Shown here: positions 2,205 through 22,876 of the stretch, in pieces
Position numbering within the stretch: the first letter of the stretch is position 1
How the letters are laid out: each line of letters starts with the position of its first letter
Origin: a virus
Direction: 5' to 3' (one strand)
Length of the DNA: 23,228 nt
IMG/VR virus record: IMGVR_UViG_3300031722_000175
Span: 1 to 23,228 of that record
Program-made: the position numbers and the translations under genes
Notes under the pieces: generated by a model
The model's database searches: none
What the model saw: only the letters and a program-made list of their open reading frames with translations
What the model was told of the DNA's origin: nothing

Positions 2205-5200
2205 ATGGCGATTAGCGATACACAAAAAATTGACGACCTGTACAAGAAGTTAGTATTCGGAGTCACAAAAACTGACGTAGCAGGAAATAAGTCTCCGAGT
2301 AACGAGGCTATTCCTAGCCCGTTATTAGTGCGCGGCGATACGTTGTGGAACCAGTCTGGATTAATTCCGTTGGTTCCGCCAGCAGCAACTGATGCAGTGG
2401 TTCATTGCTACACAGGTACTGCCCGTGTTGCTCCTTCTTCAGACCCAACAGTAGTTCCGGCCACCCGCACCTGGATCACAGGTGTTGAAAATTGGATCCC
2501 ACCACAGTTCGGTTCTAGCTACACTGTTAAGGTGTATGCTGACAGCTTAGGTGCAACAAATCCGTCGTTGACTGGTACATTGCTAGCTCCGGATGGTATC
2601 AATAACGATGCCTGGCTGTTTGACTACCAAGCAGGCGTGTTGAATTTTGCTGACACAAATATTCCAGCAGCGTTAACCGGTAAAACAATCTTTATCACTG
2701 GATATCAATACATTGGTACAGTAGGTATCTCTAGCGGTACAAACTACGGCGATTTGACAATCAACGGTGCAACAATTAGCACTAGCGTGACAGACGGCGA
2801 TGTTACTATTGAAGGTAACGGCACTGGTGGTGTTGTTCTTAACGATCAAACAACGATCAACGGCGCAGCTACAGTAAATGGCGCAGTGACAGCAACCGGC
2901 ACAGTAACCGCCCCAACATTCGTAGGCAACGTTGTTTCGACAGGTACAAGCACATTTACTACCGCAAACATCAATGGTGGCGCAGTCAACGGAACAGTGA
3001 TCGGCGGAACAACGCCGGCAGCAGCAACGTTCACTACCGTAACCGGCGGTCCAGCAACTTTTAGCAGTATCAACAACACACCGATTGGCAACGCAGTCCC
3101 GAGCACTGGCGCGTTTACCACACTAGCAGCTAGCGGATTAGCCAGCGTTACTGACTCAACAGAAAGTACGTTAGCTTCCAATGGAGCATTAGTGGTAGCT
3201 GGCGGTGTTGGTATTGCTAAAAACTTAAACGTTGGTGGTAACGTGATTGTTACTGGCGACTTAACCGTACAAGGCACTACAACTACAGTCAACTCAACCG
3301 ACGTATCTATTGTTGACAAGAACCTTACGGTAGCAAAGGGTTCGTTAAATGGCACAGAAGCAGACGGCGCAGGTCTTACAGTTGCTGGTGCAAATGCAAC
3401 ATTGATATACAACGGTAGCAATGATACATGGAACCTAAATAAGGATCTTAACGCTCCGGTCATTAACTCAACAGCAACAACTGACTCGACAAGTCCAGTA
3501 ACTGGTGCGTTGACAACAGACGGTGGTGCAGGCGTAGCTAAAGACTTGTATGTTGGTGGCACAATTCACGGCGCAGTGCAAACAGCGAACTTAACGGCGA
3601 CTGGTGGCACTGTTAGCGTAACTTCGGTTAGCGCATCGGTTATCACAACTGCTAACGCACAGATCAGCGGTGGTGCAATTACCGGCACTCCAGTAAGCGG
3701 ATCTACAGTAGGCGCGACAACATTGACAACTGCTAATGCACAGATCACTGGTGGCGCACTAAGTGGTGTGACCGTCGCAGCAACAACGATATCTACTCCA
3801 GCAGCAACAATCACTGGCGGTACGTTAGATGGCGTAACAGTATCTAACTCAGCTATCAACACTTCCTCAGTGTCGACGGGTGCATTAACAGCAACTGGTG
3901 GTACAATTGCAGGCGTAACAATCACAAACAGCCCAGTTTCTGGCTCAACTGGTTCGTTCACATCAATGACGACTGGTGATGCAGTTATCACTGGTGGTAA
4001 CATTTCTGGTGTTGACGTAACAGCAGCTTCGCTAACAACCGCAAACGCACAGATCACAGGTGGTGCAATTAGTGGTACTCCGATCTCTGGAGCAGCAGGT
4101 TCGTTCACAGTTGTTACGACAGCTAACGCTCAAGTAACTGGTGGTTCTGTAACAGGTCTTGACTTGCTAAGTGCAGTGTCGGGAACAGTAACAAACTTGA
4201 CAACAAGCAACGTATTCATCACAGGTGGTGCAATCGCTGGAACCCCAATCTCTGGATCAACTGGTTCGTTCACAAACTTAACAGCAAGCAGCTTCACAGC
4301 AGACAGCATCAACAATACTCCAGTCGGAAACGCAATTCCATCCACTGGTGCGTTCACAACGTTGTCGTCAACTGGTGTTGCTCACGTTACTGATTTAACT
4401 CAAAGCACGTTGACGTCAGACGGCGCATTAGTGGTAGACGGTGGTGTTGGTATCGGCAAGAACTTAAATGTTGGCGGTAACGCAATCATCACTGGTAACT
4501 TAACAGTGAATGGTTCGACTACTATTGTTAATTCGTCAGACTTGTCAACAACAGATCGTAACATTACGTTAGCAGTTGGCGCAACAAACAACGCAACAGC
4601 AGACGGCGCAGGTATCACAGTTGCTGGTTCTGGTGCAGAAGTTAGATACGATGGCGGCAACGATACATGGAACCTCAACAAGAAGTTGAACGCTCCAACA
4701 GTAGCACTATCTGACGCAACTAACGCAACTAGCCCGACAACTGGTGCAATCACAACTGCGGGCGGCGAAGGTATTGCGAAAGACTTGTGGGTCGGTGGTA
4801 CAATTTACGGTGCAATCGTTACGTCAAACGCACAAGTTACTGGTGGCAACATTACTAACATCGGCACATTTAGCGCAACAGATGGCACTGTTACTAACCT
4901 AACTACAGGCAACGCACAAATCACAGGTGGCGCAATTAGCGGTGCTTCAGTTAGCACAGCATCGTTAACAGCAACAGGCGGTTCGTTAACTGGTGTTTCA
5001 GTTACTGGGTCGACAGGCTCGTTCACAACGTTAGATTCGAGTGGTGCAGCAACGCTGAATTCAGTAGTGACATCAAATGCACAGATCGCAGGCGGCACAA
5101 TCACTGGAACACCGTTTAGCGGCTCTACAGTAAATGCTACTGTGTTGACTACAGCAGATGCACAGATCACTGGTGGCGCTATTACAGCAACTCCGGTAAG

Positions 5201-8200
5201 CGGCTCTACAGTAGATGCAACAGTGTTGACGACAGGTAACGCACAGATCACAGGCGGCGCTATTACAGCAACTCCGATCTCGGGCTCAACTGGTTCGTTC
5301 ACAACATTGTCAGCAAGTGCAGGTATCACTGGCACGTTGCAAACAGCAGCACAACCAAACGTAACATCGGTTGGCACGCTGACGACATTGTCGGTAGCTG
5401 GCGCAACATCGACAGGCGCATTGACTTCATCTTCAGTAACAACAGGTAACGCTCAAGTAACTGGTGGCGCAATAGACGGCGTAACGATCACTAACAGCCC
5501 GATCTCCGGATCAACTGGCTCGTTCACCAGCTTAACTGCATCAAGCTTCACAGCAGACAGTATCAACAATACTCCGGTTGGAAATGCAATTCCGTCCACC
5601 GGAGCATTTACAACCTTAGCAGCAGGCGGCGCAGTTTCGTTAACAAGCAACGCACAAAGCACTTCAACATCCACTGGTGCATTAGTGGTAGCTGGAGGTG
5701 TTGGCATCGCTAAGAACTTGTATGTTGGTGGAAACACTGTTGTTGAAGGTGACTTAACAGTTACAGGTACAACGACTACGGTTAGCTCTGCAACACTTGA
5801 CGTTACTGACAAGAACATCACAGTAGCTAAGGGTGCTGCCACATCAATCGCAGCAGATGGCGCAGGCTTAACAGTTGACGGCCCAGCAGCAGCGACGATC
5901 CTTTACACTGACGCAACAAATACGTGGAACTTCAACAAAGATGTGGTAGCAGCTAACTTCATCGGTAACGTTCAGGCCACTACAGTCGCAGCAACAACAG
6001 TGGCAGCAACAAACGTCGCTGGTACATTGACGACCGCAGCACAGCCAAACGTGACATCAGTTGGTACGCTAACAAGCCTGGCAGTAGCAGGTGATGCAGC
6101 GGCAGGTTCTGTAACAACAGCAAACGCACAGATCACAGGTGGCGCAATTAGCGGTGCAACAGTTGACGCAACAACGTTGACGACAGCCGCAGCAACGATC
6201 ACTGGTGGTACTATTACTGGAACAGCAGGTAGCTTCACAACCTTAGCAGCAAGTACAAGCCTAACAGCAAATACTTCTGGCGCAATTGTATTGAATTCGG
6301 GTACAGTTGGTTCAATCGACAAGATGAACATTGGTGCTACAGTGGCTGGTACAGGTAAGTTCACAAGCTTAACAGCAACAAGCGCAACATTCAACAGCAT
6401 CAACAATACTCCAATTGGCAACGCAATTGCGTCAACTGGTGCATTCACAACATTGGATGCAACTGACACAAATACGTCAAGCTTGGATGTTAGCGGTGTC
6501 GCTACAGTAGCAGCATTAACCGCTAGCGGCGTAGTAACGGCTAACGGTGCAGTGGTTGCAAATAGCACATTAACAGCAAATGGCGCAACAGCAGTAAACG
6601 GCACATTCACAGCAAATGCAGCTTCGGTATTTAACGGAAGCGTAACAGCAAACAGCGCAGTGACATTGAGTCCGGCAACTGGCTTAGTAACAATTGCTCC
6701 GACTGCAACTGGCTCGATCAGCAACATGACAATCAATGCAGTATCGATGTCCACAGCTAACGTTCAGGTAACGGGTGGCGATATTACAAACACTCCGATT
6801 GCTGGATCGACAGGTGTGTTTACAACATTGACAGCAGGAAGCTTTATTGCTGACAGTATCAACAATACTCCGATCGGGAACGCAACACCGTCCACTGGCG
6901 CATTTACGACGCTATCGGCAACAAGTGGTATTTTAGGCACGTTACAGACTAACGCACAACCAAACATCAACTCCGTTGGAACATTAACGAGCTTAGATGT
7001 AGCTGGCGCAGCAACGTTAGGCACAATGACCACATCGTCAGCAACAATTACTGGTGGCACAATCAACAACACAGTGATCGGCGGAGTAACACCATTAGCT
7101 GGTACGTTCACAACAATGAACGCAAACAACGTTGGTGGATTGCTAACAACCGCAGCACAACCAAATGTAACATCGGTTGGCACGTTGACATCGTTGGCAG
7201 TATCTGGCGCAGTAACAACAGGCGCATTGACAGCAGCATCGATCAATACAACTAACGCACAGATTAGTGGTGGTGCTATTACATCGACTCCAATTAGCGG
7301 ATCAACAGGCAACTTTACTTCTGTAACAACAGGTAACGCTCAAGTAACTGGTGGTGTGATTAGCAACACTCCGATCTCTGGATCGACAGGTAGCTTCACA
7401 ACGTTGTCGGCATCGAATGGTACAGTAACTAACTTGTCGTCTGGTAACGTAGCGGTGACTGGTGGTAACATCAGCGGTGTTGCAATTACTTCGTCGACAG
7501 GTAGCTTCACAACGTTGAGCGGTATTAATTCAACAGCAACGAACTTTGCAACAGCAAATGCTCAAGTAACTGGTGGTGCTATTACAGCAACTCCGATTTC
7601 CGGATCAACAGGTAGCTTTACGACATTAGCAGCATCGGGAGCAACAACACTAGCAGGCGCAGTAGCAGCAACCGCAAACGTTGAAAGCACTAGCACAACG
7701 ACAGGCACTATTGTGGTAACTGGTGGTGTTGGTATGTCCGGAAACGTGCATGTCGGCAACGGCGCATTCATTAACGATAACAAGTCAGTACAACCGACGG
7801 TCGTCAAGGGTGTTAATGATGATTCATTGATCTACGCTAGCGCAACAACTAACCAGGTAATGATTGGTGGTAACGTTGCTTCGTCAAGCGGCTTCGTAGC
7901 TGGTGCTAAGTTGCAGGTTAATAGCACTGACTCGATCTTGTTCCCAGTAGGTACAAGTGGTCAGCGCCCAACAGTGCCAACAGCTGGTATGACACGTTAC
8001 AACTCTACGTACAACCAGCTTGAGTTTTGGAATGGCAGCATTTGGGCAAGCACAGAAACCGTGTTCACGCTCATCACTGATCAACAGTTCACAGGTGACA
8101 ACTTAACTGACTCGTTCTTCTTAACTGCTGCATCTACTACTAACAGCACAATCGTTAGCATCAACGGTGTGGTACAGATCCCAGGTCTAGCTTACAGCGT

Positions 8201-9752
8201 AGCAGGAACAACGTTACAATTTAGCGAAGCACCACTGTCCACAGACGTTATTGACGTTCGTGTGTTAGTGACAACGCAAGCTATTAGTGGTCTTTCTAGT
8301 CCGAGCGGGTTTAACCAGATCATCCCAGATGACACAGAGTTAAGTGTTTGGACAGGTATTACTAACAGCGCAAAACGTTGGAGATTTGACGGTGCTACTG
8401 GTTCATTATTGCCAGTAGGTGCAATGGACATTGGGTCAGTTGGTGCCCCAGTAGATAACATCTTCGCAAGCAACGTGGTTATCACAGGTGGATCGATTAC
8501 TGGTGTTAGCTTCACATTTGACGCAATCAACGACACGATCATTGGAGCAAGCGTATCGGCTCCGGGTACATTTACTGGACTAGCAGCTAACGCTGAGTTC
8601 GCTCTGCAACAAGGCGCAGCCGTAACATACAACGAAGTTGGTACAGCGTTTGGTACTTCGGCTACAGTAGTTGACTCGTTTGATGCTACATTGTTCAGAA
8701 CAGCAAAATACGTAGTATCGGTTACAAACGGATCAACTTTCCAGGCCGCAGAAGTGTTAGTAACACATGACGGCGTTAATGCATATAGCACGACGTACGG
8801 CGTGGTTAGCACAACTGGCAGCACGTTAGCAACCTTTACCGCAGCTTACTCGGCAGGTACTATTACGTTGCAGGCAACAGGTACTACAGCAGGTAACGTA
8901 GCAAAGGTACAAAAGACGTACATTGCTATCCCAACTGATCTGCCGGGTGTTGGTGGTATGGGTGCAGGTGGTGGTTATGGTGCAATGGAGCCAGGTACTT
9001 ATGCTACGTTAGTAGACGGCAAGATTCCTACTTCGGAATTGCCAGCAATCGCAATCTCGAACACGTTTGTGGTTGGCTCATTAGCAGCAATGACCTCACT
9101 AGCAGCTCAAACAGGCGACGTTGCGATCAGAACAGAAATTAGCAAGTCGTATATATTGTCGGGTACTAATCCGGCAGTAGTAAGTGACTGGACTGAGTTG
9201 TTGACTCCGTTGGGTTCTGTAACAGCCGTAAACGGTCAAACTGGTATCGTTGTAATTAACGACATCGACGGCAATGCAGCGACAGCAACATTGGCTACTA
9301 ACGCAACCCATGCAACAACTGCTGATTCGGTAACTGGTAACGCAGGCACTGCAACTAAGCTAGCAACCGCACGCACTATCGCGCTCACTGGTGATGTTAC
9401 TGGTACAATATCGTTTGATGGTTCAAGTAACGCAAGCATAGCAACAACGTTGAAGGGTGATGTTGTTTCGACGAAGACATTCACAGGTGCAGTGACTTGT
9501 AACTACGCAACAGAAGGTGCTTATGTGGCAGCAACAGTAACAGGCGCAACAACGTTGACAATTGCAGGCGTTCCAGACAGCATTCGTGCTTATGGTATGA
9601 CCTTCGAACTGACCAACGCAGGTACTAACGTAACATGGCCAGCTTCGATAACATGGCTAGGTACTGCCCCGGCATTACGCGCAAGTGGCGTGTCGATGGT
9701 AACATTAGTTACTCGTAACGGCGGTACAACGTGGTTTGGTTCAGCAGCATAA
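2205..9752 (+). CDS. Giant repetitive tail fibre protein (2515 aa)
   Basis: Start ATG is 8 bases after an AGGAG ribosome site. Residues 1 to about 175 form a non-repetitive N-terminal domain (LYKKLVFGVTKTD, a Trp-rich middle, ITGYQYIGTVGI) that probably attaches to the tail. Residues about 180-1850 are fibre repeats: 27-residue units of the AQITGGAISGTPISGSTGSF type, five SINNTPxGNAxxSTGAFTTL elements (starting at residues 288, 701, 1119, 1398 and 1551), and three longer modules with TTTTVNS, DKNITVAKG, ADGAGLTV and TWNLNK motifs. The C-terminal third carries segments typical of phage fibre tips: GQRPTVPTAGMTRYNST and LEFWNGSIW near residue 1930, DGKIPTSELPAIA and GDVAIRTEI near 2270-2310, VNGQTGIVV near 2341, and LATARTIALTGDVTG near 2385. 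There is no signal peptide. It is probably a trimeric, beta-structured host-recognition or whisker fibre. The gene ends just before a strong terminator. Confidence 0.93.
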   Translation: MAISDTQKIDDLYKKLVFGVTKTDVAGNKSPSNEAIPSPLLVRGDTLWNQSGLIPLVPPAATDAVVHCYTGTARVAPSSDPTVVPATRTWITGVENWIPPQFGSSYTVKVYADSLGATNPSLTGTLLAPDGINNDAWLFDYQAGVLNFADTNIPAALTGKTIFITGYQYIGTVGISSGTNYGDLTINGATISTSVTDGDVTIEGNGTGGVVLNDQTTINGAATVNGAVTATGTVTAPTFVGNVVSTGTSTFTTANINGGAVNGTVIGGTTPAAATFTTVTGGPATFSSINNTPIGNAVPSTGAFTTLAASGLASVTDSTESTLASNGALVVAGGVGIAKNLNVGGNVIVTGDLTVQGTTTTVNSTDVSIVDKNLTVAKGSLNGTEADGAGLTVAGANATLIYNGSNDTWNLNKDLNAPVINSTATTDSTSPVTGALTTDGGAGVAKDLYVGGTIHGAVQTANLTATGGTVSVTSVSASVITTANAQISGGAITGTPVSGSTVGATTLTTANAQITGGALSGVTVAATTISTPAATITGGTLDGVTVSNSAINTSSVSTGALTATGGTIAGVTITNSPVSGSTGSFTSMTTGDAVITGGNISGVDVTAASLTTANAQITGGAISGTPISGAAGSFTVVTTANAQVTGGSVTGLDLLSAVSGTVTNLTTSNVFITGGAIAGTPISGSTGSFTNLTASSFTADSINNTPVGNAIPSTGAFTTLSSTGVAHVTDLTQSTLTSDGALVVDGGVGIGKNLNVGGNAIITGNLTVNGSTTIVNSSDLSTTDRNITLAVGATNNATADGAGITVAGSGAEVRYDGGNDTWNLNKKLNAPTVALSDATNATSPTTGAITTAGGEGIAKDLWVGGTIYGAIVTSNAQVTGGNITNIGTFSATDGTVTNLTTGNAQITGGAISGASVSTASLTATGGSLTGVSVTGSTGSFTTLDSSGAATLNSVVTSNAQIAGGTITGTPFSGSTVNATVLTTADAQITGGAITATPVSGSTVDATVLTTGNAQITGGAITATPISGSTGSFTTLSASAGITGTLQTAAQPNVTSVGTLTTLSVAGATSTGALTSSSVTTGNAQVTGGAIDGVTITNSPISGSTGSFTSLTASSFTADSINNTPVGNAIPSTGAFTTLAAGGAVSLTSNAQSTSTSTGALVVAGGVGIAKNLYVGGNTVVEGDLTVTGTTTTVSSATLDVTDKNITVAKGAATSIAADGAGLTVDGPAAATILYTDATNTWNFNKDVVAANFIGNVQATTVAATTVAATNVAGTLTTAAQPNVTSVGTLTSLAVAGDAAAGSVTTANAQITGGAISGATVDATTLTTAAATITGGTITGTAGSFTTLAASTSLTANTSGAIVLNSGTVGSIDKMNIGATVAGTGKFTSLTATSATFNSINNTPIGNAIASTGAFTTLDATDTNTSSLDVSGVATVAALTASGVVTANGAVVANSTLTANGATAVNGTFTANAASVFNGSVTANSAVTLSPATGLVTIAPTATGSISNMTINAVSMSTANVQVTGGDITNTPIAGSTGVFTTLTAGSFIADSINNTPIGNATPSTGAFTTLSATSGILGTLQTNAQPNINSVGTLTSLDVAGAATLGTMTTSSATITGGTINNTVIGGVTPLAGTFTTMNANNVGGLLTTAAQPNVTSVGTLTSLAVSGAVTTGALTAASINTTNAQISGGAITSTPISGSTGNFTSVTTGNAQVTGGVISNTPISGSTGSFTTLSASNGTVTNLSSGNVAVTGGNISGVAITSSTGSFTTLSGINSTATNFATANAQVTGGAITATPISGSTGSFTTLAASGATTLAGAVAATANVESTSTTTGTIVVTGGVGMSGNVHVGNGAFINDNKSVQPTVVKGVNDDSLIYASATTNQVMIGGNVASSSGFVAGAKLQVNSTDSILFPVGTSGQRPTVPTAGMTRYNSTYNQLEFWNGSIWASTETVFTLITDQQFTGDNLTDSFFLTAASTTNSTIVSINGVVQIPGLAYSVAGTTLQFSEAPLSTDVIDVRVLVTTQAISGLSSPSGFNQIIPDDTELSVWTGITNSAKRWRFDGATGSLLPVGAMDIGSVGAPVDNIFASNVVITGGSITGVSFTFDAINDTIIGASVSAPGTFTGLAANAEFALQQGAAVTYNEVGTAFGTSATVVDSFDATLFRTAKYVVSVTNGSTFQAAEVLVTHDGVNAYSTTYGVVSTTGSTLATFTAAYSAGTITLQATGTTAGNVAKVQKTYIAIPTDLPGVGGMGAGGGYGAMEPGTYATLVDGKIPTSELPAIAISNTFVVGSLAAMTSLAAQTGDVAIRTEISKSYILSGTNPAVVSDWTELLTPLGSVTAVNGQTGIVVINDIDGNAATATLATNATHATTADSVTGNAGTATKLATARTIALTGDVTGTISFDGSSNASIATTLKGDVVSTKTFTGAVTCNYATEGAYVAATVTGATTLTIAGVPDSIRAYGMTFELTNAGTNVTWPASITWLGTAPALRASGVSMVTLVTRNGGTTWFGSAA
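3066..6395 (+). repeat. Three tandem super-modules (1239, 1254 and 837 bp) inside the fibre gene
   Basis: Copies of the anchor SINNTPxGNA start in frame at 3066, 4305, 5559 and 6396, with a fifth at 6855. The first three super-modules each contain, in the same order, the anchor, a GALVV(A/D)GGVGI(A/G)KNL element, a (D/N)LTVxG(T/S)TTxV element, an ADGAG(L/I)TV element, a TWN(L/F)NK element, and then a run of 27-residue AQITGG units. Spacings fall from about 1.25 kb to 837 and then 459 bp, so later copies are shortened. This points to internal duplication followed by deletion within one gene. Confidence 0.85.
5079..5321 (+). repeat. Three tandem 81-bp (27-residue) fibre repeat units
   Basis: Units start at 5079, 5160 and 5241, exactly 81 bp apart, each beginning with GCACAGATC (Ala-Gln-Ile). 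The protein unit reads AQI(T/A)GG(A/T)IT(A/G)TP followed by SGST. The same 81-bp spacing appears at 3657 and 3738. This is the basic repeat of the shaft of the 2515-residue fibre, and the DNA is close enough between neighbours to allow recombination or slippage. Confidence 0.85.
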
Positions 9753-9769
9753 GGTAAGATGATGTAAAG

Positions 9770-9799
9770 AGATAGGGTGGGAATTATCCTGCCCTATCT
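9770..9799 (+). terminator. Factor-independent terminator after the giant fibre gene
   Basis: AGATAGGG at 9770-9777 pairs with CCCTATCT at 9792-9799. The stem extends inward through two G-T pairs and three Watson-Crick pairs to a four-base loop, giving about 13 pairs. It is followed by TAGTTTTAG. It lies 18 bases after the fibre stop codon and separates the fibre from the cassette array. A reading frame that could begin at 9777 would start inside this hairpin, another reason to place the next start at 9852. Confidence 0.8.
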
Positions 9800-9851
9800 T
9801 AGTTTTAGGCTGGTGCGACTAGTATTTCGCGCTCCTATTATAGGAATCAAA

Positions 9852-10298
9852 ATGAAAATTTTTAAACGTGCTCAAATCGCAGCAATGACTAAGCTGTCTG
9901 GCAGTCTTACTCAAACGCCTGCTCTTGCTTGGGTGTATCTGTTCGCCGGATTGAACGTCGATCCTAATGGGATGAACAACGCCTATGCCTTCCCAGGTAG
10001 TATTTCTTCAACCCAAATCTCTCCTATACCACTCAACTCTTCTAGTACCAGTCCTAGCATATCAACTTACGGTCAGACTATTTCCTCCTCGCCCTTGAGC
10101 ATACCGTGCTACCCGTCAGAAACAGCAGCCATACTCAGCAAGTTAGTTCCGACATTCTCTGCACCTAGCGCGAGCTTCAGTGATCTGTCTGAGACTCGAA
10201 GCATTGTTGCTTTAGGCGTGACCAGAACTGTACGTGTTGGGGTTTATTGGGAACAAAAGTATGGACCTCGATACTCTAGATATACTCTGCTGCCTTAA
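9852..10298 (+). CDS. Cassette 1: tag peptide plus orphan Ser/Pro-rich tail (148 aa)
   Basis: The start at ATG 9852 is preferred over an upstream in-frame start at 9777. It follows an AGGAA ribosome site, the upstream start lies inside the terminator hairpin, and the protein then begins MKIFKRAQIAAMTKLSGSLT, nearly the same as the start of the gene at 11357. After this tag the remaining ~128 residues (WVYLFAGLNVDPNG, then Ser/Pro/Thr-rich sequence, then VGVYWEQKYGPRYSRY at the end) match nothing I recognise. No membrane segment or enzyme motif is visible. The ribosome site sits in a short palindrome (TCCTAT-T-ATAGGA, 9833-9845) that might mask it. By position, behind a fibre gene and in front of two adhesin-like cassettes with related tags, it is probably a virion or receptor-binding accessory protein. 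This is inference. Confidence 0.75.
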   Translation: MKIFKRAQIAAMTKLSGSLTQTPALAWVYLFAGLNVDPNGMNNAYAFPGSISSTQISPIPLNSSSTSPSISTYGQTISSSPLSIPCYPSETAAILSKLVPTFSAPSASFSDLSETRSIVALGVTRTVRVGVYWEQKYGPRYSRYTLLP

Positions 10299-10375
10299 GC
10301 TCCTTGCTAATCAGCAAACAACTAAGTTAGGCCACCAGCTAAAGCTTTTCTTCTTACTTCACAGGAATTTTCAAA

Positions 10376-11338
10376 ATGAGAATGTTTAAACGAACCGCAA
10401 TCCTTCAGGCCCTAACCAACGGGCTGACCTATCAGGCAAATACTGCCCCAGTGCCTAATGCGTCAGGGAGTGGGTACTATGCTGGAGGCTCGGGTCCAGG
10501 TGGAGTCCTAAAATCCATTGATCGACTTGATTTCAGCACTGAGGCCTGTGCTCGACTTTCAGCCTTACTTGCTAGTGCTCGACAGTTTGCTTCTGGGTAT
10601 CAATCCCCGACCAAAGGCTATGTTGTCGGACAAACCACCAGCATTGAAAGCTTGGCGTTTAGCACCGAAGCCACTGGAGTCTTGTCCGCCTCTACGAGTT
10701 CAGCTCGCGAGTATGGGGCAGCAACACAGTCCCAAACCAAAGGATATCTCGGAGGCGGGGGTTGGTACTCGGCAGTCATTGATCGGCTTCTCTATTCCAC
10801 CGAAGCCAATACGTTGCTATCGGCCACTCTGGCTAAGGCCCGGAATATGCTGAACACCGTTTGTTCAGACACAAAAGGTATTTTCGTATCAGGGTTTAAT
10901 GGTACCTTCTGTTACGACACGGATGACTTTACTTTCAGTACCGAAACTCGATCTGCCACTGGTTCGCTTCCGGTGTATAGGAGAAGAATTGGGGCTACAG
11001 TGCAATCCGCAACCCGAGGCTACCTGTGTGGGGGTATCACCGTCCTGAACGAAGGGACGAGCACCTACGGAGATTTGGCCGAGATTGATTCCGTCGTTCT
11101 TAGCACCAATACCTGGACAAAACTCTCGGCAGTTCTATCTACAACCAAGAACAACTTGTCGGGCACCAGCTCAAAAACAAAGGGATACCTATATGGCGGA
11201 GCTAAGAGCTATCCAGGGGGCCCGTTCCCTACCTCAGTAGATAGCCTGGCCTTTGCTACTGAGACCTCCAGCGTCTCTAGTGCAGTTCTTCCCGCAGCCT
11301 ATAGCGTTAACCCGGCAGGCCTCAGTCACGCCCTTTAG
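10376..11338 (+). CDS. Cassette 2: tag peptide plus six-repeat kelch-like propeller (320 aa)
   Basis: The ATG follows CACAGGAA. Residues 1-20 (MRMFKRTAILQALTNGLTYQ) form the B-type tag, resembling the remnant at 12133 and more distantly the A-type tags at 9852 and 11357. A short Pro/Asn linker follows, then six repeats of about 40-55 residues with the pattern KGYxxGG, a variable stretch, a hydrophobic strand, FSTE, LSA, then AR or TK and QSxTKGY. Examples are IDRLDFSTEAC, IESLAFSTEAT, IDRLLYSTEAN and VDSLAFATETS. Paired glycines and a regular strand pattern are characteristic of kelch/galactose-oxidase-like beta propellers, which often bind carbohydrate. Six blades would give a closed propeller. 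Codon use (CCC, CTC, GGA) differs from the GCA/ACA-rich fibres on either side. Probably a receptor-binding cassette. The fold is likely and the ligand unknown. Confidence 0.85.
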   Translation: MRMFKRTAILQALTNGLTYQANTAPVPNASGSGYYAGGSGPGGVLKSIDRLDFSTEACARLSALLASARQFASGYQSPTKGYVVGQTTSIESLAFSTEATGVLSASTSSAREYGAATQSQTKGYLGGGGWYSAVIDRLLYSTEANTLLSATLAKARNMLNTVCSDTKGIFVSGFNGTFCYDTDDFTFSTETRSATGSLPVYRRRIGATVQSATRGYLCGGITVLNEGTSTYGDLAEIDSVVLSTNTWTKLSAVLSTTKNNLSGTSSKTKGYLYGGAKSYPGGPFPTSVDSLAFATETSSVSSAVLPAAYSVNPAGLSHAL

Positions 11339-11356
11339 TCAACCAAGGAAATCATC

Positions 11357-12112
11357 ATGAAAATCTTCAAACGCACTCAAGTGGCGGCTATGACCAAACT
11401 GTCCGGCAGCCTTACTTCCAGTTCCCCTCCTGCAGGTGTTACGGTTGACTATCTCATAGTTGGCTCAGGTGGCAAAGGCGGCGGATTCTTCTATAGCAAC
11501 GGACATAACGCGAGCGGTGGCGGTGGTGGAGGTGAGGTAATACCTGGAACAGGACTGGCGCTAATCCCCGGCGTAACGATACCCGTAGTGGTCGGGTCCA
11601 TGAATGGATCCAATTCGTCCTTGAACTCCATCGTAGCCAGAGGAGGTAAGCCTGGAAAGGATTTCGACGCGGGCGGCGGCGGCGGCGCCAGCGGCAATGG
11701 AAAAACTGGAGGGAGTTCCGATGACAGCGGCGGTAGTGGGGGTGGCGGCGGCGGAGCGGCCGCCAATGGCACGTCCTCTGGGTACGCCCAAGCAGGTAAC
11801 GGTGGTGCTGGGGTAACGTCAACTATTACCGGAAGCTCCGACATCTATGGCGGTGGCGGTGGCGGTGGCAGTGGCGTGTACGGCGGAGGAAGTGGCGGCA
11901 GGAATGGTGGCGGAACCTATGGGCGGGGCGGCTCCGGTGCTGGCCATAGCGGCAGTGCCGGAGAGGATGGTATAGCAGGGTGCGTGATCCTACGCTATCC
12001 TAATAACCTACCTGATCCAAAGACCGTCACCGGAAGTCCCACGATAACCAACGTCGGTGGGTATAAGATTTACAAGTGGACTGCGCCCGGCAGTTGGAGT
12101 ATCACCTTTTAA
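11357..12112 (+). CDS. Cassette 3: tag peptide plus glycine-rich adhesin-like domain (251 aa)
   Basis: The ATG follows AAGGAAATCATC, 18 bp after the kelch-like gene. Residues 1-20 carry the A-type tag (MKIFKRTQVAAMTKLSGSL), closely matching cassette 1. A Ser/Pro linker then leads to VDYLIVGSGGKGGG and a long body with several poly-Gly runs of five to seven residues separated by short loops. It ends in GCVILRYP and a small C-terminal strand domain (VGGYKIYKWTAPGSW). This order (YLIVG-G, Gly-rich core, VIxRYP, strand tail) is that of the glycine-rich domain found in many phage and viral surface proteins. Gly-rich bodies of this kind recall the polyglycine-helix receptor-binding domain of T2/S16-type gp38 adhesins, though I see no gp38 attachment domain. 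It is likely a fibre-tip adhesin held by the short tag. GC content is clearly above that of its neighbours because of GGC/GGT codons. Confidence 0.85.
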   Translation: MKIFKRTQVAAMTKLSGSLTSSSPPAGVTVDYLIVGSGGKGGGFFYSNGHNASGGGGGGEVIPGTGLALIPGVTIPVVVGSMNGSNSSLNSIVARGGKPGKDFDAGGGGGASGNGKTGGSSDDSGGSGGGGGGAAANGTSSGYAQAGNGGAGVTSTITGSSDIYGGGGGGGSGVYGGGSGGRNGGGTYGRGGSGAGHSGSAGEDGIAGCVILRYPNNLPDPKTVTGSPTITNVGGYKIYKWTAPGSWSITF

Positions 12113-12132
12113 CCCTACCAAGGATTTCAGAA

Positions 12133-12213
12133 ATGAGAATGTTTAACCAAAATGCAATCCTACAACCCTTGACTAAGAGTCTTGAATATCAAGCTACTCG
12201 AGCCTGCATTTGA
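12133..12213 (+). pseudogene. Cassette 4 remnant: tag peptide only (26 aa)
   Basis: This small frame is preceded by CCAAGGATTTCAG, a ribosome site like those of cassettes 2 and 3, with the ATG at 12133. It reads MRMFNQNAILQPLTKSLEYQ, then ATRACI and TGA. It aligns with the B-type tag of the kelch-like cassette (MRMFKRTAILQALTNGLTYQ) at 14 of 20 positions, so it is clearly a fourth copy of the tag. No payload domain follows: the frame stops and runs directly into a late promoter. It may be a decayed cassette whose payload was lost, or a docking point where cassettes are gained and lost. It could also still be translated as a free tag peptide. The relationship to the other tags is secure, its status less so. 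Confidence 0.65.
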
Positions 12214-12219
12214 TAAATA
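12212..12219 (+). promoter_or_regulatory. T4-type late promoter motif GATAAATA
   Basis: GATAAATA matches the phage late core ATAAATA (T4 consensus TATAAATA). It overlaps the TGA stop of the cassette-4 remnant and lies 25 bases before the start of the 198-residue gene. With a start site about ten bases downstream it would leave a short leader containing the GAGGAA ribosome site. Confidence 0.6.
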
Positions 12220-12244: not shown

Positions 12245-12841
12245 ATGTCAACAGAAATCACAGTAGTAACAGAAACTAATGTACCAGATGTTCTTAAAGA
12301 AGTGCAGGAGGCCTTCTACGATATACCGTTTGAAAATTCACAGTTTCAAACAGAAGCGTTTGTTATTGCAGCTCAAGTAACACCAGAACGCGCTTACCGC
12401 TCCATCGGTCTTCAGATGAACTCTAAGATACAAGCCCTCAACGAAGCAAAATATAGCAGAGCAAAAGAAGATATCGATATTGAAGAGCTTGAGTTTAAGA
12501 TTGCTGATCCAACGACTAATAAGTTTGATCGCCGCCGCTTTCAGTTAGACATCGAGCAGAAGTTAGCTAACCGACCGTACACCGACAAGCTTATCAACGA
12601 TGCTCTTCAAGAGTTGAACGTGCTCTATCACCACTTTAAAACATTGCCGCGATACACAAGAGATGAATTTGAAGCCGGTGAAAAGACTCATTTCGAAGTT
12701 AAATTAACTCGTCAGCTAACTGGAATTCAAGGCGCTCAAGAAGCGTTAGTCAACATGAATGAAGATTTGCCTAGACTAGAAGAAACGATTCAGGCTGCTC
12801 TACTGTTGAATAGTAGCACATCAAAATTATTGAAGACTTGA
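12245..12841 (+). CDS. Conserved-looking hydrophilic protein of unknown function (198 aa)
   Basis: The start at ATG 12245 is chosen because GAGGAA lies at 12234-12239 and a late promoter just upstream. A longer frame from a TTG at 12182 would overlap the cassette remnant and the promoter. The protein is highly charged and appears mostly helical: an acidic N-terminus (VPDVLKEVQEAFYDIPFENS), then helices such as YSRAKEDIDIEELEFKI and DRRRFQLDIEQKLANR, an aromatic LNVLYHHFKTLPRYTRDEF segment, and a C-terminal helix LPRLEETIQAALLL. There is no signal peptide or membrane segment and I recognise no enzyme motif. Its place between adhesin cassettes and a fibre gene, under late promoters, suggests a structural or fibre-assembly role. 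That is inference from context only. Confidence 0.88.
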   Translation: MSTEITVVTETNVPDVLKEVQEAFYDIPFENSQFQTEAFVIAAQVTPERAYRSIGLQMNSKIQALNEAKYSRAKEDIDIEELEFKIADPTTNKFDRRRFQLDIEQKLANRPYTDKLINDALQELNVLYHHFKTLPRYTRDEFEAGEKTHFEVKLTRQLTGIQGAQEALVNMNEDLPRLEETIQAALLLNSSTSKLLKT

Positions 12842-12847
12842 TAAATA
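12840..12847 (+). promoter_or_regulatory. T4-type late promoter motif GATAAATA
   Basis: This is the same GATAAATA octamer as at 12212, again overlapping the TGA stop codon of the gene before it (12839-12841). It lies 70 bases before the next ribosome site region and drives the 1002-residue fibre gene. The leader holds two near-copies of GTGGGG but no clear hairpin. Confidence 0.6.
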
Positions 12848-12917
12848 ATTGAGTAAAAGTGGGGCGATCCAGTGGGGAGCGTATCACTAGCAGTAAAAAT
12901 AATAAGGATTCACAAAA

Positions 12918-15900
12918 ATGGCAAATATCGACGAAAATTTTGTTGTAAAGACTGGGCTTACAGTTGGCCCTACAACAATCGCAGCATCAACAGGCAACTA
13001 TGTTACTTCAGGCAACGTAAAAGTTGGTAATACCGTAATTGACGGAGCGACTGGTAACATCCACGCTGGCGCTACTGTGATTAATGGTACCACAGGCGCG
13101 ATCACAACTACAGCTAACGTATCAACAACTGGCGGCAACTTCATCGTTAATGGGGCAGTTTTAAGTCCTAATGGTGGATCGTTCTCGTCTGCTACTATCA
13201 CTGGATCAACAATCAACGGAACTGTCATTGGCGGATCTACCGCAGCAGCTGGGTCGTTTACGTCGTTAGACGCAACGGGCACAGTGACCACAAACGACAT
13301 TCTACCACACGTGACTAACGTAAGCAACATCGGTAGTGAAACTCAACGATTTGGGACGATTTTTGTCAACGAAGCTCGTTTATCAACAAACACCTTATAC
13401 TTAGGAACCACTCCAATTTTAGGCACTTCTGGTACAGTAGTGAACATACACGCTGATCCAGGTCAGTCTATCAGTATGCAAACTACTGGTGCTGCAGGTA
13501 TGCTGTCATTTGTTGCTAATGCTCAAGTCACGTTGCAGACTACAGGTAATAACGCTGATGTTCTTATTCAGTCTAATGGTACAGGCTCGCAAACTCGAAT
13601 CTTGTCGTCGGCTAGCGTTGATGTAAATGCCCCGGTTATTAATCTAGCAGGCAACGTTACGACTACTGGCTCGGCTACAACAAACGGTGACCTTATTATC
13701 AACGGTAACGTAACGATTACGGGCTCACAAGCGTCGGTCAACGCCAACGACTTATCAGTGAAAGATAACATTGTTATCGTGAACGCAGGGGAAGCGGGCG
13801 CCGGAGTTACGGCTGGAACAGCGGGTATTCAATTCGCTCGAGGTCAGGTGTCAAGCTATCAGTTAGTGTTTAAAGAATTAGATCAGTCGTTGCAGTTTGG
13901 TCCGGTCGGAGCAACAACGAAGGTCGCAGTAGAGAATGGCTCTGGACAAATTGTTGGTACGTTTGTTGGCAATTTAACTGGCAACGTTACAGGCGCAGCA
14001 ACGACAGCAGGAACAGTTACTTCCGCAGCGCAGACAGCAATCACATCGGTTGGCGTGCTAACTGGATTAACAGTAACCTCGCCAATTACTGGTTCAGTAA
14101 CTGGTTCAGCAAGCAGCGCAACAACAGCTGGTTCAGCAACTACAGCTGGCACAGTCACAACCGCAGCTCAGCCAGCTATTACCTCAGTTGGTACATTGAC
14201 TGGATTGGCTGTAACAGCACCGATCACTGGGTCAGTAACTGGCTCAGCAGCAACAGTGACAGCAGCAGCTCAGACAGCAATCACGTCAGTTGGTACTTTA
14301 ACCTCTCTAGTAACTAGCGGCAATGCTACAGTAGGTGGGTCTCTCACAGTTAACGGCGATATCGTAGTTAATGGTACCACTACAACATTAAATGCGACGA
14401 CATTAGACGTAGCCGACTTAAACATCACTATTGCAAAAAATGCAGCCACTACAGCAGACGCAAACGGCGCAGGTATTACGATCAACGGTGCAAATGCTAC
14501 AATGGTGTATGGTAACACCAACGACAACATCACGTTTAATAAACGAGTTGATGCTACTTCGTTCTATGGTTCTGGCGCAGGCTTAACAAATATTCCAGGC
14601 GCAGCAATCGTTGGTGGCGTTGGTGGCAACGTTACTATCGGTTCAACTGTTCTTCCATTAAACGGGTCGACCTCGACGTTAGCTGGATTAACTTCAGTCG
14701 CAGCAACAACCTTTACGGGTGCGTTCTCCGGAACAGCTACTGCCGCAACAACAGCAGGGACATCGACTACTGTTGGTGTCACAAATGATATTGCATCAGT
14801 AACAACTCATTATCCAACATTTGTCGGTGTAACATCTGGGTCTGATGCAATCTCGACCGCAAGTACCAGGTTGAATTTTGTACCATCTACTGGCGTGCTG
14901 TCGGCAACTCAGTTCACAGGTTCTGGTGCTGGTCTTACCTCGATTCCGAATGGTGCGTTGACGAACAGTGCAGTGAATGTGACTGCTGGCACTGGTATGT
15001 CAGGTGGTGGCGCTGTATCGTTAGGCGGGTCAGTTACACTCAACAATGCTGGCGTCACTCAGTTAACCGCAGGTGGTGGGGTAACAGTATCAGGTGCAAC
15101 AGGTTCGATCACGTTAGGGTCAACAGCAACCTCCGCTAACACAGCAAGCGCAATAGTAGCACGCGATGCTTCTGGTAACTTTAGTGCTGGTACAATTACA
15201 GCAGCGTTGACAGGTACAGCAAGCAACGCTACTACAGTCGGCGGATTAACCCCATCAGTTGGCGCAGGTGTACTAAATCGCGTGGTAGTAGCAGATGCAA
15301 GTGGTTATATCAACAACACTTACTTTAGCTCCACTGACAACAGTGCGGTATCGGGTGTTACAGCAGTGATGGTTAAAGTTGGTGACAACTACTTGCGATC
15401 AGGAACCTCAGCAGCTATTTCGACGTTCTTAGGATTGACATCATCGGCTACTACAGCTAATGCAACTTTAAACACTGCTAACACATTAGTCTTACGTGAT
15501 GCTTCTGGTAACTTTAGTGCAGGCGTTATCACAGCAACTTCGACCACAGCACGATATGCTGACTTAGCAGAAAAGTACACCTCGGATGCAGAATACGAAC
15601 CAGGTACAGTGGTCAGCTTTGGTGGGGAATTTGAAGTCACGTTAACCACACGTGACGGAGATCGTCGTGTTGCTGGCGTAGTAACAACTGCACCTGCTTA
15701 CTTGATGAATTCAGAGCTTCAAGGTACGTCAGTTGCTATTGCGCTTCAAGGACGTGTTCCGTGTAAGGTTACTGGCAAGGTCAAGAAGGGCGACATGCTT
15801 ATCCCGGCAGGTCAAGGGTTTGCTCGTGTTGATATGAACCCGTTAATGGGACAAATGATTGGTAAAGCTCTCGAAGATTTTGACGGCATTAACGGCATTA

Positions 15901-15926
15901 TCGAAGTAGCAGTAGGCCGTATGTAA
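12918..15926 (+). CDS. Repetitive tail fibre protein with conserved C-terminal domain (1002 aa)
   Basis: The ATG follows AATAAGGATTCACAAAA. The N-terminus (MANIDENFVVKTGLTVGPT) leads into VGNTVIDGATGNI and similar beta repeats. Around residues 240-330 there is a TITGSQASVNANDLSVKDN and AGAGVTAGTAGI segment, and around 480-540 a VNGTTTTLNATTLDVADLN, ADANGAGITI and ITFNKR segment, the same module type as in the 2515-residue fibre. Three AAQ(P/T)AITSVGxLT repeats lie near residues 366-460, and two RDASGNFSAG repeats near 750 and 860. The last ~125 residues, starting ARYADLAEKYTSDAEYEPGT and including RRVAGVVTTAPAYLMNS, ALQGRVPCKVTG and a final GIIEVAVGRM, form a domain I recall at the end of many cyanophage-type fibres. 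It may be a tip or chaperone-like autoprocessing domain, but cleavage cannot be shown here. Confidence 0.92.
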   Translation: MANIDENFVVKTGLTVGPTTIAASTGNYVTSGNVKVGNTVIDGATGNIHAGATVINGTTGAITTTANVSTTGGNFIVNGAVLSPNGGSFSSATITGSTINGTVIGGSTAAAGSFTSLDATGTVTTNDILPHVTNVSNIGSETQRFGTIFVNEARLSTNTLYLGTTPILGTSGTVVNIHADPGQSISMQTTGAAGMLSFVANAQVTLQTTGNNADVLIQSNGTGSQTRILSSASVDVNAPVINLAGNVTTTGSATTNGDLIINGNVTITGSQASVNANDLSVKDNIVIVNAGEAGAGVTAGTAGIQFARGQVSSYQLVFKELDQSLQFGPVGATTKVAVENGSGQIVGTFVGNLTGNVTGAATTAGTVTSAAQTAITSVGVLTGLTVTSPITGSVTGSASSATTAGSATTAGTVTTAAQPAITSVGTLTGLAVTAPITGSVTGSAATVTAAAQTAITSVGTLTSLVTSGNATVGGSLTVNGDIVVNGTTTTLNATTLDVADLNITIAKNAATTADANGAGITINGANATMVYGNTNDNITFNKRVDATSFYGSGAGLTNIPGAAIVGGVGGNVTIGSTVLPLNGSTSTLAGLTSVAATTFTGAFSGTATAATTAGTSTTVGVTNDIASVTTHYPTFVGVTSGSDAISTASTRLNFVPSTGVLSATQFTGSGAGLTSIPNGALTNSAVNVTAGTGMSGGGAVSLGGSVTLNNAGVTQLTAGGGVTVSGATGSITLGSTATSANTASAIVARDASGNFSAGTITAALTGTASNATTVGGLTPSVGAGVLNRVVVADASGYINNTYFSSTDNSAVSGVTAVMVKVGDNYLRSGTSAAISTFLGLTSSATTANATLNTANTLVLRDASGNFSAGVITATSTTARYADLAEKYTSDAEYEPGTVVSFGGEFEVTLTTRDGDRRVAGVVTTAPAYLMNSELQGTSVAIALQGRVPCKVTGKVKKGDMLIPAGQGFARVDMNPLMGQMIGKALEDFDGINGIIEVAVGRM
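14013..14300 (+). repeat. Tandem AAQxAITSVGxLT repeats in the 1002-aa fibre
   Basis: In-frame copies start at 14013, 14151 and 14253. The first two share the order TV(T)xAAQ, AITSVG, LTGL, PITGSVTGSA, and the third is shortened. Related GTLTTAAQPNVTSVGTLTSL strings occur several times in the 2515-residue fibre, so the two fibres share repeat modules. Confidence 0.75.
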
Positions 15927-21096: not shown

Positions 21097-22269
21097 ATGG
21101 CAAAAGGCAAATCACTGATCAAAGCTCGTCCTAAAGCAGTTCGTCGTGACCCGTTGTTTACGGATGAGAAATACATTGGCGACGAGCCAGTTTGGGATAC
21201 GGTACGTGCTGCTACGTTTGACGACACCACGTTTGACCACTTCCTCCGCCAAAGCTTCCGTTACTACAATTACTTCTTCGGTGTCAAGGACATGAAGAAG
21301 CACGTGATCGTTTGGGCTAAAGCAAACATGAAGCTGACCAAAACGCAGCTTGACGCATACATTGCTTCAAGTCCGGAACTTACTCCGATGGCACTTAGTG
21401 GTCTTATCCGCGCTGAAGGCAAGGGTATGCCGATGCGTGAAAAGCATCGCACTTACATTGTTGACACGATCAGCAAAATCGTCGCTAACGCGGTGCCGGT
21501 AGTTGCTGTTGCTGCTGATAAAAAGGCAGTTAAGGCGGTTGCTCCGTCGATCCAAGATCGGCTTGCTGAAAAAACTGCCGGAATCATCGGCGAGATCGAA
21601 GGTCAACTCGATAACGTGTATATGGGCAAGGCAGTCGACTTCAAAGTTTACGATTACTTGGCTGCAAACAATTTTGCCCAAGCACAAGTTGGCAAAATCC
21701 GTGCAGTGTTCCAAAAACAAGCAGACGAACTGGCGTTGGCGCTGGGCGGTACTGATGAGCAACTGAAGGAAGGTTACAGCCACCTTACTAAGGCAAGCGC
21801 AAAGCGCGTGATGGAATATTTCACTACGTTGTTTGCTGATTTGGACAGCTACACGCACGTGAAAAAGGCAACGAAGAAGTTGCGCGTTAAGAAGCCAGTC
21901 TCGAAGGACAAGCAAATTGCTCGCGTTAAGTTCATGAAGGAAAGCAAGGAGCTCAAGATTGTGTCGATTAGCCCGGCAGACATTATCGGGGCCACGGAAC
22001 TTTGGGTCTATGACACTAAGTACCGTAAGTTGCTTCAATATGTTGCTGACTCCCATGGTGGCACGCTTGGAATTAAGGGAGCTTCAATAACAGGATATGA
22101 CGAAGTTAAAAGCTGTGGTAAGTCATTGCGCAAACCAGTCGAGCAACTTCGTGAGTTTAGTAAGTCGGGCAAAGTAGCTCTCCGCACGTTTATGGGAACT
22201 ATCAAAGCAGTAAGTGTGAAACTAAACGGACGGATTAACGAGAATCACTTGCTGTTGAAAGTGGTTTGA
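21097..22269 (+). CDS. Conserved-looking phage protein of unknown function (390 aa)
   Basis: The ATG follows ACAGGAGCAACAAA. The protein is Lys-rich with no signal peptide. Residues 1-145 include [35 protein letters not shown] and a basic loop. The middle (about 165-270) is helical, with [21 protein letters not shown] Lys-rich linker follows ([18 protein letters not shown]). The C-terminal domain has [40 protein letters not shown] and [16 protein letters not shown] recall relatives of this C-terminal segment in hypothetical proteins of large T4-like phages but know no function. The sigma70 promoter implies early expression and the basic linker would allow nucleic-acid binding. Both are inference. 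Its last 35 bp overlap, on the other strand, the end of the GIY-YIG endonuclease. Confidence 0.92.
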
Positions 22270-22876
22270 ACTTACAGTTATCAAGATGCCAACGATGCAT
22301 GTTGGCAGTCTTGCCCAGCTTACCGCAATGCGGACATTGAGTAGGGAGTTCGGTAGACTTAATAATACCGAACTTTCCTTTATTCCACGGTGTTCTTCCT
22401 TTGAGATTAGCCTTGCGTTCCTCCGAAAATGTTCTTCCGGACAAGGCAGCAGATACGCTCGGCTTTGCTATCCCACGTTGTGAATCTCCTACTTTTTTGC
22501 CTGTGTCTTCCTTCCACTCTGCTACTCTTCGCCCAGCATATTTCTCTCGACGCTTTACTAAATATTCTTCGGTCCTACGTAAGCCAGATGCACCGTCACC
22601 GCCATCGGTCATATTGTGTAATATACCAGTTTTGATATCAAATCGCCCATACCACCGAATTAGCCACCGCTCTAAAGCAAAGGCCCCGAACTCAGTTAAG
22701 TTTACAGCTATGAATATAATCAATGATTTGTCTTTTGGAACAGGAATTTTGCCGTGAGGTTTATATGCTCGATTACCCTTACCTTTTCCGGTGTAATATG
22801 GAGTTCCTGCTTTTGCTGTTTTAGAATCTTTGCTACGCAGGTAAGCGTAGACGTAATAAATAAGTTTGTTGGACAT
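22235..22876 (-). CDS. GIY-YIG homing endonuclease, free-standing (213 aa)
   Basis: The N-terminal ~80 residues form a GIY-YIG-type nuclease domain in the variant common in phages: YYVYAYLR (7-14), [12 protein letters not shown] (26-37) with R36, and [13 protein letters not shown] (66-78) where E69 is the likely metal-binding catalytic residue, then [17 protein letters not shown]3-like DNA-binding motif follows ([20 protein letters not shown]), then a C-terminal zinc-finger-like motif with C181, C184, H194 or H197 and C201. This order (nuclease, DNA-binding helices, zinc finger) is usual for phage-encoded homing endonucleases. The start ATG follows CAGGAG. A late promoter lies about 57 bases upstream. 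It converges with the 390-residue gene and overlaps its end by 35 bp, so it is inserted without an intron. Confidence 0.9.

Follow-up and report, generated by a model that had tools for sequence, protein, structure and literature searches.

Four open reading frames situated between two giant fibre genes of a jumbo T4-related myovirus begin with two short peptide tags in the order A-B-A-B, and behind these tags the encoded proteins are unrelated. The frames were found in a 23,228-base virus record, referred to here as the window, which also encodes a gp15-type tail sheath stabiliser, a NUDIX gene and structural genes; its gp15 shows a 32-35% match to those of Sinorhizobium phage Phosso, Agrobacterium phage Atu_ph07 and Pseudomonas phage PA5oct. 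On balance, the array probably encodes accessory tail-tip adhesins carried on short peptide handles, which would have entered the genome in one island with p198, a putative assembly factor of the kelch adhesin, and with a new fibre tip.

Tag conservation and payload domains

The four frames are located on the plus strand and are the following: A1 (9852..10298, 148 aa), with tag A (9852-9908) and an orphan Ser/Pro-rich payload; B1 (10376..11338, 320 aa), with tag B (10376-10438) and a six-bladed kelch propeller; A2 (11357..12112, 251 aa), with tag A (11357-11413) and a glycine-rich domain; and B2 (12133..12213), a truncated frame with a tag B remnant of 26 codons followed by a stop. Each frame starts with ATG, 6-12 nt downstream of a ribosome site of the AGGA type. 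Local alignment scores were 84 for the A1/A2 tags and 61 for the B1/B2 tags, and neither score was matched in 20,000 shuffles. The four related, alternating N-terminal peptides described in the first-pass annotation are therefore borne out by the starts, the ribosome sites and the alignment scores. The similarity between both tag types was weak, with scores of 29 for A2/B1 (reached by 35 of 20,000 shuffles) and 24 for A1/B1 (551 of 20,000), and the local alignment of tag A with B2 was not significant with the same number of shuffles. From these weak scores, A and B may be one diverged family.

The A1 and A2 tags are identical at 17 of 19 residues. Their first 20 codons show nine synonymous and two amino-acid-changing differences (P = 1e-4 for two or fewer replacements among 11, under an expectation of 75%), and all five codons directly after the tag differ, the similarity ending at residue 20. 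This mostly synonymous drift, followed at once by five different codons, points to selection on the peptide that ends at residue 20, and since the peptide was kept despite the synonymous differences, both copies have been under selection after their split. Tag B, with a length of about 21 residues including YQA, is less conserved, because B1 and B2 have 14 of 21 residues in common, with seven replacements versus seven synonymous differences. The B2 product is MRMFNQNAILQPLTKSLEYQATRACI, and its stop falls within the late-promoter-like sequence GATAAATA. The stub nature of B2, the divergence of the B tags, the orphan payload of A1 and an A-B-A-B order compatible with tandem duplication or insertion would also fit a graveyard of adhesin genes, in which serial replacement of a single tip gene by recombination left repeated copies of its 5' end, the tag being just the conserved start of that gene and one copy or none being used. 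This alternative is possible but rather unlikely, given that the A1/A2 peptide has been kept through nine synonymous differences and that three frames are intact and have ribosome sites.

No relationship among the payloads was detected by BLASTP (best E about 1), as the earlier annotation had proposed, and its payload list held for the orphan, the kelch and the glycine-rich domains; B2, which it had listed as a tag with no payload, is a 26-codon stub rather than a payload-less gene. The AlphaFold (AF2) model of B1 is a six-bladed kelch propeller with a mean pLDDT of 84.7, in agreement with the six or seven four-stranded blades that characterize kelch beta-propellers. Its best PDB matches in Foldseek were SAKe6/KLHL12 (E 2.9e-18, TM 0.79), and it also matched phrog_19111 at 1.8e-19 and Pfam Kelch_4 with 21.0 bits, just below the cut-off of 21.6. 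Residues 1-28 of B1, corresponding to the tag, have a pLDDT lower than 50 with a predicted helix at 7-14, and are placed outside the folded propeller. A2 matched PF21722 (Gly_rich_2) with 25.4 bits versus a cut-off of 24.3, with no PDB sequence match at E 0.01 and no match to Pfam gp38. The A1 payload gave no family match in profile searches; the possibility of a frameshifted kelch or other gene was rejected, as the search of its six frames against all loci matched only the tag of A2. Because B1 and A2 carry, at a fibre-flanked locus, a kelch propeller and a fibre-tip type of glycine-rich domain, adhesion is the likely function of the array. With regard to a possible foreign origin, third-position GC content (GC3) was 0.50-0.55 in B1 and A2 versus 0.36-0.38 in the fibre genes, but the structural genes of the opposite strand had 0.46-0.56.

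The tags of A1, A2 and B1 are basic (+3 to +4). The hydrophobic moment of the tags was not above that of shuffled sequences, so no unusual amphipathicity was found, the amphipathic helix was rejected and the idea of docking through a helix is left without independent support. A secretion signal was also rejected, because the tags, with a mean hydrophobicity of about 0, lack a hydrophobic core.

Exact and relaxed patterns of tags A and B had no genuine second occurrence in the 2.9 million viral contigs of IMG/VR, and neither had tag A, the only one scanned by pattern, in species genomes. The few relaxed-pattern matches fell on internal ATGs or in very short frames, and all were judged to be chance matches. 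These searches were pattern scans, from which more diverged tags could escape. A tblastn search with the tag and start of A2 against cultured phages gave no match. The finding of each tag in one genome only is an outcome that the first-pass annotation had itself counted against its proposal; however, the layout recurs with other tags in related loci.

The fibre-tip island and the p198-kelch pair

Related loci were fetched through gp15 (49 loci) and through p248, the gene 3' of the second fibre gene (2 loci). The closest relative with the region, L079, shows 75% identity in p248 and 61% in gp15. The giant tail fibre gene of the window (2205..9752, plus strand, 2515 aa) is largely common to L079 over residues 1-2242, with BLASTP identities of 59-70%; the L079 fibre is 70% identical over its last 343 residues, then stops at KVQKTYIAV, 273 residues earlier than the window fibre, and the next fibre gene starts about 110 bp further on. 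The second large fibre gene of the window, fib1002 (12918..15926, plus strand, 1002 aa), is homologous to L079 6618-9773. About 3.9 kb that include the fibre tip, A1, B1, A2, B2 and p198 are present in the window and missing from L079, and this joint absence indicates that tip extension, array and p198 together form an island. The right edge of the island is at or just left of GATAAATA (12840..12847), and its right flank, GATCCAGTGGGG (12866..12877, plus strand), is common to L079 6572-6583. The comparison among relatives suggested by the earlier annotation has thus revealed an empty site in L079 and, at the same place in other relatives, different repeated-tag arrays. From these two sequences the direction is unproven, but a gain by the window lineage is more likely than a loss in L079, because a search that recovered four positive controls detected no p198 in 16 jumbo relatives, among them contigs with lengths of 354 and 321 kb. 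A parallel search of jumbo relatives for the kelch protein, run without a positive control, gave no match.

The C-terminal tip extension (8931..9749, plus strand, 273 aa) is the part of the giant fibre that L079 does not have. Since it co-occurs with the array in one island, this new tip is a candidate socket for the tag. A tblastn search revealed that approximately residues 23-113 of the extension are a module present in 500 phage records, mostly in minor tail proteins. These proteins come mostly from actinophages, including phages of Gordonia, Arthrobacter and Mycobacterium.

The p198 gene (12245..12841, plus strand) encodes a conserved protein, predicted to be all-helical (pLDDT 73), with a near-invariant segment AFYDIPFENSxFQ and a match to phrog_1409 at 1.5e-9. 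It is present in 14 IMG/VR loci, whereas no p198 was found among cultured phage records (tblastn, two queries). No match to the PDB was obtained by fold or sequence, and its profile gave pattern matches in species genomes with no confirmed relative. A homologue of the B1 kelch is directly beside p198 or one gene away in 12 of the 14 other loci, although L058 and L059 are near-identical and the independent count is one lower. The exceptions are L052, truncated by the end of its contig, and L053, where p198 has fibre genes on both sides. No kelch homologue was found in the 49 gp15 loci. Possibly, p198 assists the assembly of the kelch adhesin. The p198-kelch pair, for which the cultured-phage collection gave no match, points to an adhesin-partner system not described so far. 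The pair formed by p198 and an adjacent kelch gene (window 12245-12841; L054, L056, L058, L061 and L064) appears conserved across what seem to be different tail types.

The kelch proteins carry different N-termini, namely an anchor of about 60 residues in L054, L055, L057, L058 and L062, a SELP-type anchor in L061, and short unrelated leaders in L061, L064 and also S-SKS1. These differences among loci suggest that kelch payloads change anchors between phages, tag B being the one used in the window. In L058 and L062, one anchor is found on unrelated payloads at both sides of p198. In L054, L055 and L057, p198 and the kelch gene are separated by genes judged by eye to be fibre-assembly-like. In L061 (8651-12775), genes with SELP-type anchors flank p198, and two of them carry highly repetitive kelch blades.

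Concerning transcription, a hairpin with a T-rich tail (9769..9800, plus strand; -22.1 kcal/mol, z -4.4) is the likely terminator of the fibre transcript. The heptamer ATAAATA forms the core of late promoters of the T4 type; in the related loci, the 80 nt preceding ORFs show an enrichment of about 20-fold for this motif. In the window, it is located before p198 (12213), fib1002 (12841) and, on the minus strand, the gp15 operon (19848), the T4-late-promoter-like GATAAATA upstream of p198 being at 12212..12219 and that upstream of fib1002 at 12840..12847, both on the plus strand. B2 and p198 each terminate with a TGA inside TTGATAAATA. No ATAAATA was found upstream of A1 and, with a strong terminator before the array, its late expression is not evident. 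The missing late promoter and the basic N-termini would agree with non-adhesive assembly intermediates or lysis/entry proteins that have a common leader for co-translational or membrane targeting. This is very improbable, however, as the tag has no hydrophobic core, and payloads of the kelch and glycine-rich types next to fibre genes suggest adhesion.

Comparison with known modular systems

The first-pass annotation knew of no described system with such a layout, a statement that was too strong considering gp38 (PMC12892980) and the T-even internal proteins (PMC3012670). The T-even gp38 is a glycine-rich adhesin docked on the fibre tip via its N-terminus, and when its first 113 residues are exchanged, it becomes compatible again with another fibre (PMC12892980). 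As in gp38 of T2, S16 and PP01, the glycine-rich receptor-type domain of A2 is encoded by a separate small gene; A1 and B1 have no domain of this type. The attachment region comprises about 110 residues in gp38 and about 20 here, and each described phage has one adhesin gene, in contrast with the row of unrelated folds and two tag types of the window. The gp24 fibre of the myocyanophage Pam3 has an N-terminal helical docking part, a distal glycine-rich domain and a neighbouring chaperone, gp25 (PMC9608196), and it resembles the array in the glycine-rich domain and in the docking part and adjoining assembly partner that are proposed here for the tags and p198, respectively. Unlike the array, the Pam3 system consists of one fibre only, which includes a TNF-like domain and a long helix, and p198 has no detectable solved relative. 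Modular receptor-binding proteins, such as CBA120 tailspikes and Klebsiella depolymerases, also combine a conserved N-terminal anchor with an exchanged C-terminal receptor domain, but their anchors are folded domains whose length ranges from tens of residues to hundreds (335 for TSP4 of CBA120; PMC8825819), whereas the tags are short peptides with low predicted order. By analogy, gp38 and Pam3 gp24/gp25 are the closest working models, and the T-even internal proteins are the closest for the tag/payload layout.

The T-even internal proteins bear a short conserved targeting sequence on diverse payloads (PMC3012670). The short conserved N-terminal peptides and highly diverse payloads of the array are similar, the phage is T4-related by its gp15 family and three of the tags are basic, so the tags could be capsid targeting sequences of head-targeted or injected proteins. 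In contrast to the head-internal, injected proteins of T-even phages, both locus and folds point to the tail here, given a propeller and a glycine-rich tip domain as payloads and an island situated at a tail-fibre locus. The T4-type prohead protease site is (L/I)xE, a motif absent from the four tags, and the first 22 residues of A1, A2 and B1 contain no Glu, which leaves no such site. A head-targeted function is thus decidedly unlikely.

The modular receptor-binding system proposed in the first-pass annotation is supported in part, by a selected peptide, unrelated payloads, two adhesin-like folds, a fibre-flanked position and an island with a new tip; the same N-terminus occurs with different C-terminal domains in related loci, as expected from modular receptor binding. 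According to the preferred reading of accessory tail-tip adhesins, each protein would combine one of the two short N-terminal peptides with an orphan or a host-binding domain, and the peptide would be a virion attachment handle, probably becoming ordered upon binding the distal giant fibre. The array would have entered, or expanded, as an island with the new 273-residue fibre tip and p198; payloads would be exchanged behind the conserved peptide, replaced genes would decay, as B2 suggests, and p198 would most likely act as assembly factor for the kelch adhesin. A more ambitious version, in which one fibre tip displays several unrelated adhesin folds at once by means of two orthogonal docking peptides, each with about 20 residues, and p198 is a loader moving with kelch between unrelated phages, would amount to a plug-and-socket system in which minimal peptides replace folded anchors, and we consider it unlikely. 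Most likely, the array represents the familiar phage strategy of swappable host-binding tips, here with two tags not found elsewhere. If the tags truly dock, a handle of 20 residues would suffice for one fibre to bear folds that differ as much as a kelch propeller and a glycine-rich tip, and adhesin exchange would be directly testable in laboratory strains.

Repeated N-termini in related loci

Two or three consecutive glycine-rich genes with MAVTLGASGITFSDG-like starts are found at the corresponding position in L008, L013-L015 and L017, the MAVTLGASGITFSDG start being seen three times at the same locus, and in L006 the start MLIQGQVGQTT is common to two genes. Where relatives have repeated tags, the payloads are in most cases related as well, all of them being glycine-rich, and unrelated payloads on one tag are clear only in the window and in L058/L059/L062. 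Judged from these sequences, repeated N-termini at this locus are common to the relatives, and the window, with its unrelated payloads, appears as the cleaner example of payload swapping.

Near the glycine-rich tail genes of L013, the minus strand contains a flavin halogenase/monooxygenase-like gene (12520-14142), which matches NCBIfam QhpG at 1.4e-7 and halogenase CmlS at 5.8e-6 without reaching the curated cut-off of either, together with a gene of 198 aa (14144-14740) that is 2OG-Fe oxygenase-like by eye. Such genes are partly present also in L008, L009, L015 and L017, and a modification of tail adhesins by their products is possible. The window has a homing-endonuclease-like gene (22235-22876, minus strand; phrog_314 and phrog_655), and several genes of this type are present in the loci of the clade.
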